Positions 5,670 through 12,095 of a stretch of DNA of 64,000 nt are shown here, in pieces. The notes under the pieces were generated by a model. The model saw nothing but the letters and a program-made list of their open reading frames with translations, was not told where the DNA came from and did not search any database. The translations under genes were made by a program, and so were the position numbers. The number at the start of each line of letters is the position of its first letter. Positions within the stretch are counted from its first letter, which is position 1. This DNA is from Aquitalea aquatica (GTDB taxonomy: Bacteria; Pseudomonadota; Gammaproteobacteria; Burkholderiales; Chromobacteriaceae), in the NCBI RefSeq assembly GCF_013911085.1, contig NZ_JACERN010000046.1:62001-126000 (forward strand). Reading direction: 5' to 3'.

Positions 5670-6302
5670 TCATACCGGTTTTGCCGGATATTCGCAGAGA
5701 TCGACAATCACACAGTGCTGGCAGTCCGGTTTGCGAGCCTTGCAGACATAGCGTCCATGCAGGATCAGCCAGTGGTGGGCATCGACCTTGAATTCGGCTG
5801 GTACATATTTCAGCAGCTTGTCTTCCACCTCGCGTACGTCCTTGCCGGGAGCCAGCCGGGTGCGGTTGGCTACCCGGAAAATATGGGTATCCACGGCGAT
5901 GGTGGGGTGGCCAAAGGCGGTGTTCAACACCACATTGGCCGTTTTGCGACCAACACCGGGCAGTGCTTCCAGCGCTGCCCTGTCATCCGGTACCGCGCCA
6001 CCATGCTTTTCCAGCAGCAGGCGACAAGTGGCAATGACGTTTTTGGCCTTGGTGCGGAACAGGCCGATGGTCTTGATGTAATCGGATACGGTCTCTTCCC
6101 CGAGCGCCAGCATGGCGGCCGGGGTATTGGCCACGGCATACAAGGGGCGGGTGGCCTTGTTGACGCTGACATCAGTAGCCTGGGCCGACAGCAACACCGC
6201 AATCAGCAACTCGAAGGGCGTGCGATATTCCAGCTCGGTGGTCGGCTGGGGAGTGTGCTCGCGCAGGCGGCGGAAAATTTCGTAGCGCTTGGTGGCGTTC
6301 AT
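5670..6302 (-). CDS. nth: Endonuclease III
   Basis: A 210-residue DNA glycosylase/AP lyase that removes oxidised pyrimidines. The helix-hairpin-helix LPGVGRKTANVVL carries the catalytic Lys120, and Asp138 (VDTHIFRV) is at the same position as in E. coli. The [4Fe-4S] ligands are Cys187, Cys194, Cys197 and Cys203. ATG 6302 matches the standard N-terminus (MNATKRYEIF); longer readings are unsupported. It lies downstream of the rnf-like operon on the same strand with a 117-base gap, the same order (rnf then nth) as in gammaproteobacteria. Confidence 0.97.
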   Translation of the reverse strand: MNATKRYEIFRRLREHTPQPTTELEYRTPFELLIAVLLSAQATDVSVNKATRPLYAVANTPAAMLALGEETVSDYIKTIGLFRTKAKNVIATCRLLLEKHGGAVPDDRAALEALPGVGRKTANVVLNTAFGHPTIAVDTHIFRVANRTRLAPGKDVREVEDKLLKYVPAEFKVDAHHWLILHGRYVCKARKPDCQHCVIVDLCEYPAKPV

Positions 6303-6419: not shown

Positions 6420-7202
6420 CTACGTGCGGCGGCCAGGCGACAGGGTCAGCTTGTCCAGCAAGGGGGCGGTGGCACTGAGCAGCAGCAGGCTGGCCGCCAG
6501 CGTCACGCCGGCATCCGGGCTGGTGGTCAAAGTGACCAAGCTGATGCACAGCATGCCGGCAGCCTGGCCATAGATTAGCCGGCCACGGGGCGTGATAGGC
6601 GTGCTGCTGCCATCGCTCATCACCCAGCCGGCCAGCAGCCACAGCGCACTCTGCCCAAGCAGCCAGCCACTGCCTACCGGCAGGGCAATCAATACCACCA
6701 GCACTAGCCCGAGTGGCGCTTGCCAGCGCAGGAGGCCGCGCCAGAGCAGCCACAGGCCGCCGGCCAGCAAGGCTAGCGTCAGCGGGAGGTTGGCATGGGG
6801 CAGGCTGGCTGGCAGCCAGAGGCCAGCCAGCAGCAGGCCGCCAGCCACCGGGTGAAACAGGCTGCTGCCGCTGCCGCCAAACAGCTGGCGTAGCAGCAGA
6901 ATGGCTGCACCAGTACACATGCACAGCAGCGGCAGTGTTGCGGTGGGCAGCAGCAGGGTTAGCAGTACTGCCGACAGCACTGCGTCGCCCTGGCGCAGGA
7001 CCGGCCATATGGCCTGTCGGCGCAGAGCCAGACCCAGGCCATCGGCTAGCAGGGCGCTGACCGTGGCCAGCAGCAGCGCCAGCAAGAGCTGTGGCCCCAG
7101 CTGCCAAAACAGGATGGCGATGGCCGGCAGCAGCGCCAGCAACTGCTGGCGGTTACGGCTTGCCAGGGTTGGGGCTAGTCGTATCAAGGGTGTGCTCATC
7201 AT
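6420..7202 (-). CDS. rnfD: RnfD-like membrane protein, shortened and without the flavin-attachment loop
   Basis: A 260-residue membrane protein, about 90 residues shorter than usual RnfD/RsxD. Family blocks that remain are SALLADGLGLALRR (about 49-62), RQLFGGSGSSLFHP (105-118), GGLWLLWRGLLRW (148-160) and TPRGRLIYG (204-212). Between GLWLP and the GGLWLLW block only about ten residues remain where a canonical RnfD has roughly ninety, including the Thr that carries covalent FMN. The SGAT loop before the ITDP-like segment is also reduced, to GQSALWLLAGWVMSD. The frame is open and the start overlaps the rnfC stop (ATGA), so it is translated, not decayed. It probably still sits in the inner membrane; redox function is doubtful. 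Confidence 0.8.
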   Translation of the reverse strand: MMSTPLIRLAPTLASRNRQQLLALLPAIAILFWQLGPQLLLALLLATVSALLADGLGLALRRQAIWPVLRQGDAVLSAVLLTLLLPTATLPLLCMCTGAAILLLRQLFGGSGSSLFHPVAGGLLLAGLWLPASLPHANLPLTLALLAGGLWLLWRGLLRWQAPLGLVLVVLIALPVGSGWLLGQSALWLLAGWVMSDGSSTPITPRGRLIYGQAAGMLCISLVTLTTSPDAGVTLAASLLLLSATAPLLDKLTLSPGRRT

Positions 7203-9022
7203 TTTTCCTGCTCTCCGGCATCGCGTGCGGCTTTCTGGGCTGCGGCGCGTGCCATGGCGGCGGCAATCAAGGCTTTCTTGTCTTCATCCATGGCGGCGGG
7301 GCTGTTGGCAGTGGCAGCTGTCTTTTGGGCGCTGGCCCGTTGCATGGCCGCTTGAATCAGCGCTTGCTGCTGTTGGTTCAGGCCTGGTGCAGCGCTGTTG
7401 TTGGCAGGGGAATCCGCTGCGGCTGCTTTGGCAGCATCTTGTGCGGCCTTGCGTGCGGCGGCGCGTGCCATGGCCGCGTCGATAGTCGCCTGACGGTTGG
7501 CGGCAATGGCAGCATCTCGCTCACTGGTGCTGGCAGAGGGCGCGGTATCCGGACGCTGTTGCTGCCGCTCTGCCGCACGCGCCATCGCGGCGGCGATGGC
7601 CGCCTGTTTGTCTGCGACTACTGCTGCCGGCTCTGTGCTGCTGGGGGCCGCAGCCTGTTGCTGTGCCAGCTTGGCGGCTTGTTGTGCCGCACGTTCGGCC
7701 AGCCGCTGGGCTTTCTCCTGCTTGTCGCGTTCCAGGCGGAACTGGCGGAAGCGATGGCGCTGGCGGGCTGCGTCGGCGGCGCTCTGTTGCTGTTCGGCTA
7801 GCAGCAGTTGCTGGCTGGCCTGGCGGAAGGTGTCGAGCAAGGGCAGCTGGCTGGGGCAGACCGCACTGCACAGGCCGCACTGGCTGCAGTCGGCCAGCCG
7901 CCAGTGTTGTGCTTGTTCCAGCTGTTGCTGGCTGCAATGCCAGTACAGCTCTTGTGGCTGTAACTGGCTGGGGCAGATGCTGGCGCAATCGCCACAGCGG
8001 ACGCAGGGCTGGGCAATCAGCTCAGCCTGATCGGCTAGGGCCAGCAGGCAATGGCTGTGCTGGTGTATGCCAATGGCAGTATCGGGCAAGGCAAAGCCGC
8101 GCAGGCCGCCGCCATGGACGATGGCATGCCGCTGTGGCGGCAGGCCGGCGCAGGCTAGCAGATCGGCCACCGGGCTGCCGAGCAAGGCGAGGATGTTCTG
8201 CGGCTGCTTGACGGCACCGCTGACGGTGACGATGCGGCTGATGCAGGGCTCGCCATGCAGGATGGCCCGTCCGGCCGCATAGACGCCGGCTAGCGGCAGG
8301 CACAGGCTGTTGCTGCTTTCTTCGGGCCGTGCCAGTGACTGCAGCAGAGGTGCGTCATCACCAGCGGGGTAGGGGGCTTGTATCACTTCCAGCTGCCAGC
8401 TTTGGCTAGCGGCCAGGCTGCGCAGGGCATTGATGGCCGCTCCCTGTTCTTGCTGGATGGCCAGTACCAGCCGCGCTGGCTGCAGTATGCGCCCCAGCAT
8501 GGCCATGGCGTCGGCTACCGCAGCGGCTTGTTCGCGCAGCAGCGTACTGTCGGCCTGCAGAAAAGGTTCGTTTTCTACAGCATTGATGATGAGCAGTGCC
8601 GGCGGTGGCGCGGCTGCGGCCCAGGCCAGCGGCAGTAGCGGGCCGTGCTGGCCCATGACTCCCATGTCTTGCAGCCGGATGGCCAGCGCCAGTGGTGACA
8701 GTGCTGGCCAGTCGGTATTGGCTTGCAGGGGCAGTGCTTCGTCCTGCCCGTCTGGCTGCAACTGCAGGCCATCCCGCAGCGGCGCATCGGGCAGGGCCTG
8801 CGGCAGCGGGCCGATGGCACGGATATGGCCGGAGGTCGGGGCATGGACGGCCGCGCCAAACTCATTGTCGGCCTGTGCCAGCAACTGGTGCTTCAGTACG
8901 CGCTGGCCCACTTCGACACAGCAGCGACTGCCTTGCAGCCACAGGTTTAGCTGGGCTGGCAGCGGCAGGGTGGTGAGTGGATGGCTGCTGGCAGCAGCCG
9001 GTAAGCGGGTCTGGCGGCTCAT
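7199..9022 (-). CDS. rnfC: RnfC-like subunit with two 4Fe-4S motifs and degenerate FMN/NADH loop
   Basis: A 607-residue RnfC homologue. The N-terminal barrel ([11 protein letters not shown] about 57-67), the SLBB-like middle and the ferredoxin part are recognisable. Cluster ligands are complete: Cys340/343/346/350 and Cys379/382/385/389. In canonical RnfC a GMGGAGFPT loop binds FMN/NADH; here the matching place (about 121-132) reads [12 protein letters not shown], so most glycines are lost. Another block normally reading like RSADIGVLMQNVGTA is replaced by [15 protein letters not shown]. The tail (470-600) has four Ala-rich repeats. ATG 9022 overlaps the rnfB stop (ATGA); upstream in-frame starts would lie deep in rnfB. 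Confidence 0.85.
7217..7612 (-). repeat. Four Ala-rich 18-residue repeats at the RnfC C-terminus
   Basis: Residues 471-488, 510-527, 551-568 and 581-598 of the RnfC-like protein each contain a (A/L)I-x-AAM-x-RA core (for example [16 protein letters not shown]), separated by Ala/Ser/Pro-rich linkers. Such tails are common in RnfC; the DNA is correspondingly repetitive and may vary in copy number between strains. Confidence 0.8.
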
Positions 9023-9600
9023 GCAGCAGTACCTGGCTTGACGGCCTTGATGGCAATGACCGGGTAGCCCCAGCGCCAGTCGGCAGGCAGGCTGGTGGCC
9101 GGGCGCATGCTGATGCAGTCCACCGGACAGGGGGCCAGACACAATTCGCAGCCGGTGCATTCATCGGCCAGCACGGTATGCATTTGTTTGGCCGAGCCCA
9201 GAATGGCATCCACCGGACAGGCCTGGATGCACAGGGTACAGCCGATACAGGTGGCTTCGTCTATCAGTGCCACTGCTTTGGGTTTTTGCGGTGGGGCATC
9301 GGCGGCAAAGGGCAGATAGTCAGTGTGTAGTAGTGCGGCCAGCTTGCGTATGCCGTCCTCTCCGCCGGGAGGGCAGCGGTTGATGCTGTCTTCGCCGCGA
9401 GCCAGAGCCTGAGCGTAAGGCTGACAGCCGGCGTGGCCGCATTGACCGCACTGGGTTTGCGGCAGCAAGGCATCGATGCGCTCTGCCAGCGGCGGCAGGC
9501 TGGCGGCGGCAGGGCGTAGCTTCAGTGCGCTGCTGCGCAGGATTTTTCCCAGCAGCCAGATGGCCAGCCATAGCAGCAGCAAACGGAGAACAAGGGTCAT
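9019..9600 (-). CDS. rnfB: RnfB ferredoxin-like electron transfer subunit
   Basis: A 193-residue protein with one N-terminal membrane helix (residues 4-20). The RnfB-type cluster domain has Cys51, Cys54, Cys59 and Cys76 (CGQCGHAGC then CPPGG). Two ferredoxin clusters follow: Cys118/121/124/128 and Cys148/151/154/158. All twelve ligands are present, so this subunit looks fully functional, unlike its partners. In Rnf/Rsx it passes electrons from ferredoxin or to SoxR-type acceptors. Start overlaps the stop of the upstream gene and its stop overlaps rnfC, both as ATGA. Confidence 0.93.
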
Positions 9601-10151
9601 GACAGGCGGGCTCCAAGGCTATGCAAGGCCAGTGCGATGATGAGGGCGCAGGGCAGCAGGGCGCGCTGGCCGTGCAGCCATGCGGGCAGGGCGCAGCGTT
9701 GCAGGCGTGCTGGCAGCGTGGCGAACTGGGCCAGCAGCAAGGTGAATAGGGCTGTGCTTAGCACGCAGGCGAACAGGGATGTCAGCGGGCCGCTGGCAGA
9801 TGGCAAGTAGTACAAGGGCAATCCCGCCGCCAGGCTGTTTAACAATAGCCTGGTCCAGTGCAGTCCCAGCTGCATCGTCGGGCCGGCAGCAAGGCGCTGC
9901 AGGGCGCTGGCCAGCAACAGGGCGCTGCCCGTTTGCAGCATGACGGCAAGCAGGGCTAAGGGCAGGACGATGCCCAGGCTGCCGGCGAGGGCCAGCAGGC
10001 CGCCACCGAGCAGCAGCATGATGGCGGTGGCCAGCCCCATGGCGATGGCCGCCGGCAGTGCCTGCGCAGCAGCCTGGCTGTCAGCGGGGCGGCGGCAGTG
10101 ATTGCACAATGCCAGCCCGACAAGCAGCGGCAGATAGAGCCCAAAATTCAT
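9597..10151 (-). CDS. RnfA/RnfE-like integral membrane protein, highly divergent
   Basis: A 184-residue, very hydrophobic protein with about six predicted membrane helices, first gene of the rnf-like operon. Position, length and topology suit RnfA (or RnfE). Yet canonical RnfA has a NN-x-VL-x-x-FLGLCPF block and a TTNCAVLG block whose cysteines hold a membrane [2Fe-2S] cluster. Here the first place has [10 protein letters not shown] and the second has no cysteine ([11 protein letters not shown]). So the family call rests partly on context. ATG 10151 was chosen because earlier in-frame starts give a polar, non-conserved leader. The stop overlaps the rnfB ATG. Confidence 0.6.
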
Positions 10152-10250: not shown

Positions 10251-12095
10251 TTAAGGCAGATACTGTGCCAGCCAGGCTTGCAGCTTGCGTGCCTGGCGCA
10301 GGGTTTCTTTCAGGATGCGCGCATCCAGCGTGCCGAGCTCTGCCGGGTGGATCAAATTGTCCAGCCGGGAGGCCGACTCCTGGCAGGCCAGTTGGTGGCG
10401 CAGGCGCAGCTCTTGCAGGAATTGCGCACTGTCGGCAAAGGACTGGCAGGCACTGGCGGACAGGCCGGGTAAGCCGGCTGCGGCAGCAAAGCGTTCGCTG
10501 GTGCGGCTGGCGGCCGAGCCGGCGTGCAAGGCCAGGATGCGGGCCGCGTCGACGAAGAAATCGACGGCTGCTTTCAGGTCCAGTTGTTCGTCCTGGTTGG
10601 TTTGCAGGCGTCCGCTCCAGCCCAGTGGTGGCTCATAACGGCGGGCACTGCGGCTGAGTGCACTCAGCACTGCCGGCTGATCGGCGGCCTGACGCAATTG
10701 CCCGGCCAGTTCCAGTCCCAGTTTGTGCTGCCCCCAGGCTGGGCGCAGGTCCAGATACAGGCCGATATGCCCGGCATCTTGCGTCGCATCCTGCAATTGG
10801 TGAATGACCGTATCACTCCAGTCGGCGTAAGACAGGCAATGGCTGGGATTGCCAGCCATCAGTCCGTTGCGACACAGCGGAATGCCACAGGCACTCAGTG
10901 CCGAGTTGATGCGCTGGGCGATGGCCGGTAGTTGCTGCGCCAGTTGCTGCTGGCGCAAGGCATCGCTACAGCGGAAAACCAGTGCGCTGTCCTGATCCGA
11001 GGTCAGGGTATTTTCCTGACGACCACTGCTGCCCAGTTGCAGCCAGCAGATTTCCACCTCTTCCAGTCCGGCTCCGCTCAGGTGTAACTGACATAGCCGG
11101 GTCAGCAACTGGTCATTGAACAGACTGAGCAGGCGGGTGGTGGCATTGGCATCCATGCCTTGCTGAAACAGGGCCAGTACCTGGCGCCGAAAGGTGGCCG
11201 CCACGCCGGACAGGGCTGCCGTGCTGTCGCAGCGGCTCAGGCGTTGCAGCATTTCCTTCATGTCCAGCCGTGACAGGCGGTACAGATCATGCTCGGAGAC
11301 GATGCCCACCAGCGTCATGCCTTCACATACCATGACATGACGTTCGCCACTCTGGGCCAGGGCCAGCATGGCTTCGCTGGCCAGGGCACTGGGTGGCAGC
11401 AGGCAGGCGGGCTGGCGCATCAGCTGCTGTACCGGGGTGTCATCAGCATGACCTGCCAGGTGGGCGTCCAGCAAGTCGCGCAGGGTGAACAGGCCCAGCA
11501 GGCGCTGCTCGGGACTGGTGATGACCACCGAGCCCACCCCTTCCTGTTGCATCAGTTGCAGCAAGGGGCGCAGGGTGGTTTCCGGTCGGCAGCTGACTGC
11601 CGGCCGCTGGATCACGGCGGCAAGCGGGGTGTGCAGGCTCAGCCCCTGCCCGCCCAGCGCAGCCGGGTGTAGTTGGCGGGCGCGCGACAGCAGGTTGGCC
11701 AGCCGCTGGGTGCAGAACAGCTGGAAGGCGGCAGACTGCTGGCACAGTGCGACAAAGGCGGTTTGTGGTAGTTGCAATACCATGCAGTCGCTGTCGGCGC
11801 GGTAGTGATTGGTGACCGGTCGCTGTGCCAGCAGAGCGCCCAGCGGAAACATTTCACCCTGCCCCAACAGGGCAAAGGCCTGGCCACTGTAGATGTCTTC
11901 GGCCAGTACTTGGCCTTCCAGCACGATGAACAGTTGGCTGGCAGGGCCAGCCTGCGGGCTGGTGAGGCTGGCTCCGCGCGGATAGTGCTGGCGGCGCGCC
12001 TTCCCGGCCAGCAGCGCAAGCTGCTCCGCTGGCATGGCGGCAAAAGGTTCGTGCTGGAGCAGGGCCTGCCAGTCGGCCGGAAAGGGGGTTGGCAT
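10251..12095 (-). CDS. cNMP-binding / CBS pair / DUF294 putative nucleotidyltransferase
   Basis: A 614-residue cytoplasmic signalling protein. Domain order: cyclic-nucleotide-binding-like fold (about 15-130), two CBS domains (about 160-285), then a DUF294 nucleotidyltransferase domain with the GlnD-like motif LGSSGRQENTLTSDQDSAL (about 354-372), and a helical DUF294 C-terminal domain. The GS and DQD residues needed for nucleotidyl transfer are kept. ATG 12095 has GGAG seven bases upstream. In many Proteobacteria this gene sits near acetate uptake genes (actP), as it does here, so a role in regulating acetate or carbon use is likely but unproven. The true substrate is unknown. Confidence 0.85.
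   Translation of the reverse strand: MPTPFPADWQALLQHEPFAAMPAEQLALLAGKARRQHYPRGASLTSPQAGPASQLFIVLEGQVLAEDIYSGQAFALLGQGEMFPLGALLAQRPVTNHYRADSDCMVLQLPQTAFVALCQQSAAFQLFCTQRLANLLSRARQLHPAALGGQGLSLHTPLAAVIQRPAVSCRPETTLRPLLQLMQQEGVGSVVITSPEQRLLGLFTLRDLLDAHLAGHADDTPVQQLMRQPACLLPPSALASEAMLALAQSGERHVMVCEGMTLVGIVSEHDLYRLSRLDMKEMLQRLSRCDSTAALSGVAATFRRQVLALFQQGMDANATTRLLSLFNDQLLTRLCQLHLSGAGLEEVEICWLQLGSSGRQENTLTSDQDSALVFRCSDALRQQQLAQQLPAIAQRINSALSACGIPLCRNGLMAGNPSHCLSYADWSDTVIHQLQDATQDAGHIGLYLDLRPAWGQHKLGLELAGQLRQAADQPAVLSALSRSARRYEPPLGWSGRLQTNQDEQLDLKAAVDFFVDAARILALHAGSAASRTSERFAAAAGLPGLSASACQSFADSAQFLQELRLRHQLACQESASRLDNLIHPAELGTLDARILKETLRQARKLQAWLAQYLP

Follow-up and report, generated by a model that had tools for sequence, protein, structure and literature searches.

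What can an rnf operon still do once the parts that would make it a pump are missing? The question is raised by Aquitalea aquatica (Chromobacteriaceae; genome of 48 contigs, 100% complete), in which a stretch of 64,000 nucleotides (contig NZ_JACERN010000046.1, positions 62,001 to 126,000; hereafter the window) carries a four-gene operon, rnfA*-B-C*-D*, upstream of nth (asterisks mark altered subunits). We lean towards the view that these genes encode a maintained Rnf derivative, a membrane-anchored iron-sulfur relay that would work without the pump half of the complex, without covalent flavin and without the NADH/flavin mononucleotide (FMN) loop of RnfC.

The operon was compared with those of 61 genomes of the family, where rnf was called full if a genome had two matches to PF02508 (the RnfA/RnfE family), an RnfC match of at least 500 bits and an RnfD match above 300. 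All 61 genomes encode RnfB. Full rnf was found in 22 of them and a reduced form in ten, namely nine of the ten Aquitalea genomes and G059, the other 12 members of whose genus all have full rnf. In G023, PF02508 is matched twice and an NqrB-like protein is present, with no RnfC over the cut-off, and the remaining 28 have RnfB and no PF02508 match.

Operon Structure and Retained Cluster Ligands

The four open reading frames occupy positions 6420-10151 on the minus strand. The initial annotation, made from the sequence of the window, had described them as open and translationally coupled; ATGA overlaps were located at all three junctions, also on the minus strand (A/B, 9597-9600; B/C, 9019-9022; C/D, 7199-7202). 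In eight Aquitalea genomes, that of the window included, the overlap is kept at the A stop in seven and at the B and C stops in all eight. An operon with A, B, C and D is present in nine of the ten genomes of the genus with zero internal stops, although in G006 its genes are split over two contigs and C runs off one contig end. A pseudogene or an assembly fault was ruled out, as the nine genomes are concordant and three of them are single-contig.

RnfB (9019..9600, minus strand) has a hydrophobic N-terminus and 13 Cys, 12 of them in the usual pattern for three [4Fe-4S] clusters, and scores far above the NCBIfam rnfB subfamily cut-off (237.9 vs 68.7). RnfC* (7199..9022, minus strand) also passes its subfamily cut-off (268 vs 245.95). 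It keeps the eight Cys of the dicluster ferredoxin region (7856..8005, minus strand; two [4Fe-4S]) and a long C-terminal tail (7202..7813, minus strand), which scores 71.0 bits with a hidden Markov model (HMM) of 13 full-operon RnfC tails. All 12 RnfB and eight RnfC cluster Cys, counts that agree with the initial annotation, are retained in the nine Aquitalea operons, in G059 and in a reduced operon of Parachitinimonas caeni (locus L017 of genome G285). The site tables omit Chitinolyticbacter, which is included in the RnfC tree. A search for rnfC DNA in Escherichia coli genomes gave a single 31-base match, which was dismissed as chance.

Lost Cofactor Sites

The flavin loop of RnfC*, reported lost in the initial annotation, is indeed degraded: GQHGPLLP replaces GLGGAGFP at 8630..8653 (minus strand), and ECEP has become ENEP. 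We take GxGGAxFP and ECEP to be the FMN/NADH motifs of RnfC; both are present in full operons. Both are altered in all nine Aquitalea copies and in G059, and mostly retained in P. caeni.

RnfD* (6420..7202, minus strand) is 260 amino acids (aa) long, compared with 333-344 aa in 12 full operons. The SxATP loop with the FMN-bearing Thr is gone, as first noted for the window, where the deletion lies at 6777..6818 (minus strand), and it is deleted from all nine Aquitalea copies. The protein scores 85.7 against an NCBIfam rnfD cut-off of 207 and matches Pfam PF03116 in two stretches (107 bits). The RnfD fold is kept; the structural model (predicted local distance difference test, pLDDT, 84.2) gave template modelling (TM) scores, by query length, of 0.80-0.85 to four solved RnfD chains. 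The riboflavin site was mapped onto an alignment with RnfD of A. woodii, whose residues are named in PMC11889175. The position of Asp249 is Asp and that of Asn123 is His in 9/9 Aquitalea copies; both Asn and Asp are retained in G059 and P. caeni.

RnfA* (9597..10151, minus strand) is a diverged protein of 184 aa with six predicted helices. The initial annotation had the second block of cluster Cys missing; that block is gone, and so is the first, since neither GLCPF nor NCA, the two [2Fe-2S] motifs, is left in any of the nine Aquitalea copies. Other Cys occur at different places, with Cys 168 invariant in eight copies. Pfam reports no match for the protein, and searches with it gave E 0.042 with NCBIfam RsxA (residues 30-176) and E 0.035 with A. 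woodii RnfA. A profile of eight Aquitalea copies matched canonical RnfA with a probability of 94.8% and RnfE with 1.0%. AlphaFold gave a model of modest confidence (pLDDT 65.6), with which no Foldseek match reached E 0.001; the two best chains were nevertheless RnfA of A. vinelandii (E 3.5e-3) and of A. woodii (E 1.3e-2), both with probability 1.00 and with TM-scores, by query, of 0.61 and 0.63. The copy of G008 lies just over the PF02508 cut-off (24.3 vs 23.8 bits), a marginal match and the only PF02508 match in a reduced genome. The profile comparison, the modest fold match, the gene position and the G008 copy together identify RnfA* as a homolog of RnfA and not of RnfE; the candidates that it is RnfE or an unrelated protein were ruled out by the first two of these, the fold match being made with a modest-confidence model.

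The missing subunits are not encoded elsewhere as far as family searches of the window genome could find. There were no matches to PF02508 or to the FMN_bind family PF04205 (RnfG), PF03116 was represented by one gene in two pieces, so that no second RnfD was found, and no second complete rnf or nqr was detected. The absence of rnfG and rnfE reported for the operon thus extends to the genome. Nor was there any match to the flavin transferase ApbE. Across the 61 family genomes, which the ApbE, RnfG and SoxR searches covered, ApbE is present in all 22 with full rnf, in 3/10 reduced genomes and in 6/29 others. The difference between full and reduced genomes (Fisher p 3.6e-5) is uncorrected for kinship, which leaves only a handful of separate events behind these counts: a single Aquitalea lineage, plus G059. 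Of the three reduced genomes with ApbE, G001 has its gene directly after that of an FMN_bind protein that resembles NosR. In G002 an FMN_bind match lies at a distance of 1.8 kb, and in G008, which is 61% complete, ApbE and FMN_bind are matched on different contigs.

A link to SoxR had also been suggested. That the operon encodes a SoxR-reducing system, as proposed for E. coli RsxABCDGE, has homology to Rsx in its favor and is scarcely credible in view of the searches: the best match in the window genome, at 51.7 bits, falls short of the curated cut-off of 116.9, which led us to reject SoxR as partner, and no SoxR over that cut-off was found in any of the ten reduced or 22 full genomes, compared with 17 of the 29 others. 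In this family SoxR is thus confined to genomes that have neither a full nor a reduced rnf operon with rnfC and rnfD (17/29 vs 0/32, Fisher p 1e-7, uncorrected for kinship).

Selection on the Reduced Operon

Is the operon kept, or is it decaying? Ratios of nonsynonymous to synonymous substitution (dN/dS) were estimated by the Nei-Gojobori method on pairs that share branches, for the reduced form within Aquitalea. Nine pairs each gave 0.34-0.53 for A, 0.09-0.22 for B, 0.16-0.31 for the core of C and 0.15-0.34 for D, and six pairs gave 0.01-0.06 for nth; dN reached dS in no more than 2/1000 bootstraps of any pair. The nth of G005 and the RnfB of G046 were not used. In five full-operon pairs the values were 0-0.11 (A), 0-0.11 (B), 0.09-0.24 (C), 0.06-0.32 (D) and 0.05-0.13 (nth). 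Over all pairs with dS 0.1-1.5, the Aquitalea medians were 0.59, 0.18, 0.34, 0.38 and 0.05 for A, B, C, D and nth, and the full-operon medians, from genomes that are far apart, were 0.18, 0.26, 0.39, 0.37 and 0.18. All four genes are under purifying selection, weakest on A*, and none looks neutral. The maintained machine of the initial annotation, and the absence of decay near a ratio of one, are borne out to this extent, although the ratios are above those of most full-operon pairs: A* is relaxed three-fold or more, C exceeds four and D three of the five full pairs (the upper one, G029/G031, having 0.24 for C and 0.32 for D), and B exceeds some.

Such values could also describe slow decay, in which only RnfB is functional and A*, C* and D* are transitional toward the lone RnfB of sister genera. 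The relaxation of A*, the raised values of C and D, and the stronger conservation of RnfB than of the other rnf genes beside it agree with this, as do the relatives. In these a lone RnfB (e.g., L121 3613-4374, L136-L147) stands beside nth, overlapping it by 4 bp in all 12 readable cases of 13, and one member of the genus Aquitalea itself, G009, has RnfB only. In 11 lone RnfB proteins the last cluster is followed by a tail of 100-126 aa. All 11 tails score 22.7-32.4 bits with the HMM of full-operon RnfC tails, while the best of 2200 shuffled tails reached 11.7, a control that matters because the tails are Ala-rich; 22 RnfB tails from operons with RnfC scored below 0 or were unreported (12 reported, best -0.3). 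G041 yielded no tail by pattern and is outside this test. Judged by these HMM scores, from which the shared ancestry of the tails is deduced, the lone protein looks like an RnfB joined to a former RnfC end, and a fusion left by deletion of the operon middle is possible. The lone RsxB upstream of nth (NCBIfam PRK06991) resembles the Aquitalea operon in its RnfB clusters, nth neighbor and RnfC-type tail, and differs in having no separate RnfA, C or D beside it. Slow decay is nevertheless unlikely in our estimate, with dN/dS below one in all pairs, dN so rarely reaching dS, nine operons free of internal stops with their coupling junctions kept, and a similar B-C*-D* set in another genus (G059).

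Distribution and Origins

The G059 operon consists of rnfB, rnfC*, rnfD* (284 aa) and nth; no A, G or E match was found in the stretch, and no PF02508, PF04205 or ApbE match in the genome. P. caeni has rnfB, rnfC and rnfD* (308 aa), with nth 2 kb further on; the stretch gave no match to A, G or E, and the genome none to PF02508. Another variant occurs in G072, which has no PF02508 match in its genome; this genome and that of P. caeni lie outside the ApbE, RnfG and SoxR searches. In G072, RnfB continues into a dicluster domain and a tail of the RnfC type, a fusion that puts ligands for five clusters in one chain. The fused protein is accompanied by a DUF6714 protein, RnfD* and a 188-aa RnfA*-like protein recognized by alignment only (no Pfam match), in which both Cys motifs are lost. 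The gene before rnfD* encodes a 277-aa protein without a Pfam match in P. caeni (L017 7494-8327) and the DUF6714 protein in G072 (L112 5610-6110). Both operons follow what we take to be pyrD, and the two may share one reduction.

A scan of the order, which assumes that both family searches drew the same 399 genomes, found 165 genomes with PF03116, 151 with PF02508 and 15 with PF03116 only. Eight of these 15 have reduced rnf (five Aquitalea, G059, G072 and P. caeni). No RnfB or RnfC match was found in the stretches fetched from five others (G065, G096, G152, G280, and G429), and G128 and G227 were left out of the locus reading.

Two independent origins of the reduced form are likely. In a tree of RnfB and Nth combined, G059 pairs with the full-rnf genome G054 (97/94), and a clade of Aquitalea and G059 is rejected (p-AU, approximately unbiased test, 0.015). 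The tree holds 7/9 Aquitalea (not G005 and G006), 12/22 full and 11/29 other genomes including G009, with G059 and P. caeni. The same tree rejects a transfer of the G059 form from Aquitalea, which the trees of RnfC (p-AU 0.19) and RnfB (0.21) alone do not reject. Grouping Aquitalea, G059 and P. caeni into a single clade of the RnfC tree gave a p-AU of 0.051. A third origin, in P. caeni and G072 together or apart, is possible.

Possible Route of Electrons

The cofactors of Rnf and Nqr have been described (PMC12174285), and in the solved complex of A. woodii electrons pass along RnfB, RnfA/E, RnfG, RnfD and RnfC (PMC11889175). In Aquitalea all stations between RnfB and RnfC are gone, except perhaps riboflavin. 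Because no RnfE was found, the [2Fe-2S] ligands are missing from the membrane and there is no RnfG match, the complex cannot be the known Rnf pump, as the initial annotation had suggested. The remaining clusters, if working, would have to be wired directly or to serve outside partners.

In the relay that we favor, the lost half, for ion pumping and covalent flavin, comprises RnfE, RnfG, the RnfA/E cluster ligands, the FMN site of RnfD and the flavin transferase; RnfC has in addition lost its NADH/FMN loop. RnfB, which has the ligands of three [4Fe-4S] clusters, and RnfC*, which has those of two, would be anchored by the membrane proteins RnfD* and RnfA*. A soluble donor would reduce one end, and the electron would reach some acceptor through the clusters of RnfB and RnfC directly, not by the U-shaped transmembrane path. 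What was established is the gene content, which ligands are gone and which remain, the selection on the genes, the occurrence of comparable forms in other lineages and the co-loss of ApbE; cluster assembly, a four-protein complex and the direction of electron flow are what we infer from them. The fused chain of G072 suggests that RnfB and RnfC may exchange electrons directly.

Several observations weigh against the relay. The clusters of RnfB and RnfC in A. woodii are >30 Å apart, and direct transfer between them was called unlikely (PMC11889175). The riboflavin Asp of RnfD is retained, so a flavin may remain. The dN/dS of A*, and the tendency of B, C and D to higher values, are as expected under relaxation. 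Finally, the RnfC and RnfB trees taken singly leave room for a single origin of the reduced operons in Aquitalea and G059. The term flavin-free, used in the initial annotation, therefore needs qualification: it fits the missing covalent-FMN site in D, the degraded C loop and the lack of an ApbE match, but not the retained riboflavin Asp, even with Asn replaced by His.

The retained Asp bears on another possibility, a ferredoxin:quinone oxidoreductase in which electrons would run from ferredoxin through the RnfB and RnfC clusters to riboflavin in RnfD* and on to the quinone pool, in the manner of NqrB. The RnfD fold is kept, Asp is invariant in Aquitalea (with His throughout at the Asn position), both riboflavin residues are present in G059 and P. 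caeni, and NqrB riboflavin hands electrons to quinone (PMC12174285). Against this, N123A/D249A variants of A. woodii RnfD supported no growth or activity (PMC11889175); in RnfD* of G072 the two positions are His and Glu; and the N-terminal NqrB helices of the quinone site are said to be absent from RnfD (PMC12174285). We regard a quinone reductase as quite improbable.

The wider form of the relay interpretation, for which we see the balance as even, is that two lineages at least, and perhaps a third, have converted Rnf into a relay with five [4Fe-4S] clusters and neither pump nor covalent flavin, in which RnfD* anchors RnfB and RnfC. ApbE is absent from 7/10 reduced genomes (the two lineages searched), the relay would be a single fused chain in G072, and sister genera would keep a lone RnfB with an RnfC-derived tail by nth.

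Neighboring Genes and Other Rnf-Like Loci

The downstream neighbor nth (endonuclease III; 5670..6302, minus strand) is separated from rnfD* by a 117-bp gap, with no overlap. The Nth connection is one of gene order only. Upstream of rnfA*, a protein with cNMP-binding, CBS and DUF294 domains is encoded at 10251..12095 (minus strand). Its gene directly precedes rnfA* in the Aquitalea loci that were read, and in G009 it lies upstream of the lone RnfB; it is possibly a cyclic-nucleotide-linked neighbor.

In G033, G051, G047 and P. caeni (L056 5512-7847, L057 4295-6621, L058 5655-8044 and L114 5365-7740), rnfC and rnfD form a separate pair of genes whose GGAGFPTG and FMN-Thr (SATPL/GATPL) motifs are intact; in G052 such a pair is recognized by its position. 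These stretches gave no match to rnfA, B, G or E, and G047, one of the 28 genomes with RnfB and no PF02508 match, has no RnfA/E-family match in its genome. The pair may be an NADH-linked RnfCD unit without a pump. In G360, which has PF02508, a locus (L113 143-5512) encodes diverged Rnf-like A, E and G proteins, a 280-aa RnfD without the Thr loop and an unusual RnfC-like protein in which the normal Fe-S motifs are missing; an NqrF-like protein follows, and these last two were judged by eye. The set suggests an Rnf/Nqr intermediate or hybrid.

Relation to Known Systems and Implications

The Aquitalea operon shares with RnfABCDGE/RsxABCDGE the homology and order of A-B-C-D, the Fe-S ligands of B and C and, as in the E. 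coli locus, the position before nth. Unlike these systems, it lacks G, E, the A/E cluster ligands, the FMN-Thr of D, the FMN/NADH loop of C and, in the window genome, an ApbE match. The single losses have parallels. NqrA of Na+-NQR is a relative of RnfC minus the flavin site, as RnfC* is; NqrA is reported to carry no redox cofactor (PMC12174285), whereas in RnfC* the ligands for both [4Fe-4S] clusters are still present. In two-subunit Nqr/Rnf-like systems (PMC8238504; PMC10979944), the RnfD-like protein is without the flavinylated Thr, as in RnfD*; it is fused to an NAD-binding domain and has an RnfG-like FMN partner, neither of which was found in Aquitalea, where RnfD* matches PF03116 only and has no PF00175 NAD-binding fusion. 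No description of operons of the Aquitalea type was found in searches of the open-licence PMC library, and as far as could be seen there the combination is new.

Work on Rnf and Nqr has treated them as pumps that pass electrons across the membrane by way of flavins and the RnfA/E cluster. The loss of ApbE gives a separate indication, from the genomes, that the need for covalent flavin has gone. Pump-less forms in which the RnfB and RnfC ligands are under selection would reveal a function that belongs to the RnfB-RnfC module itself, possibly the same as that of the lone RnfB in related genera. Aquitalea and G059 provide natural separation-of-function cases.

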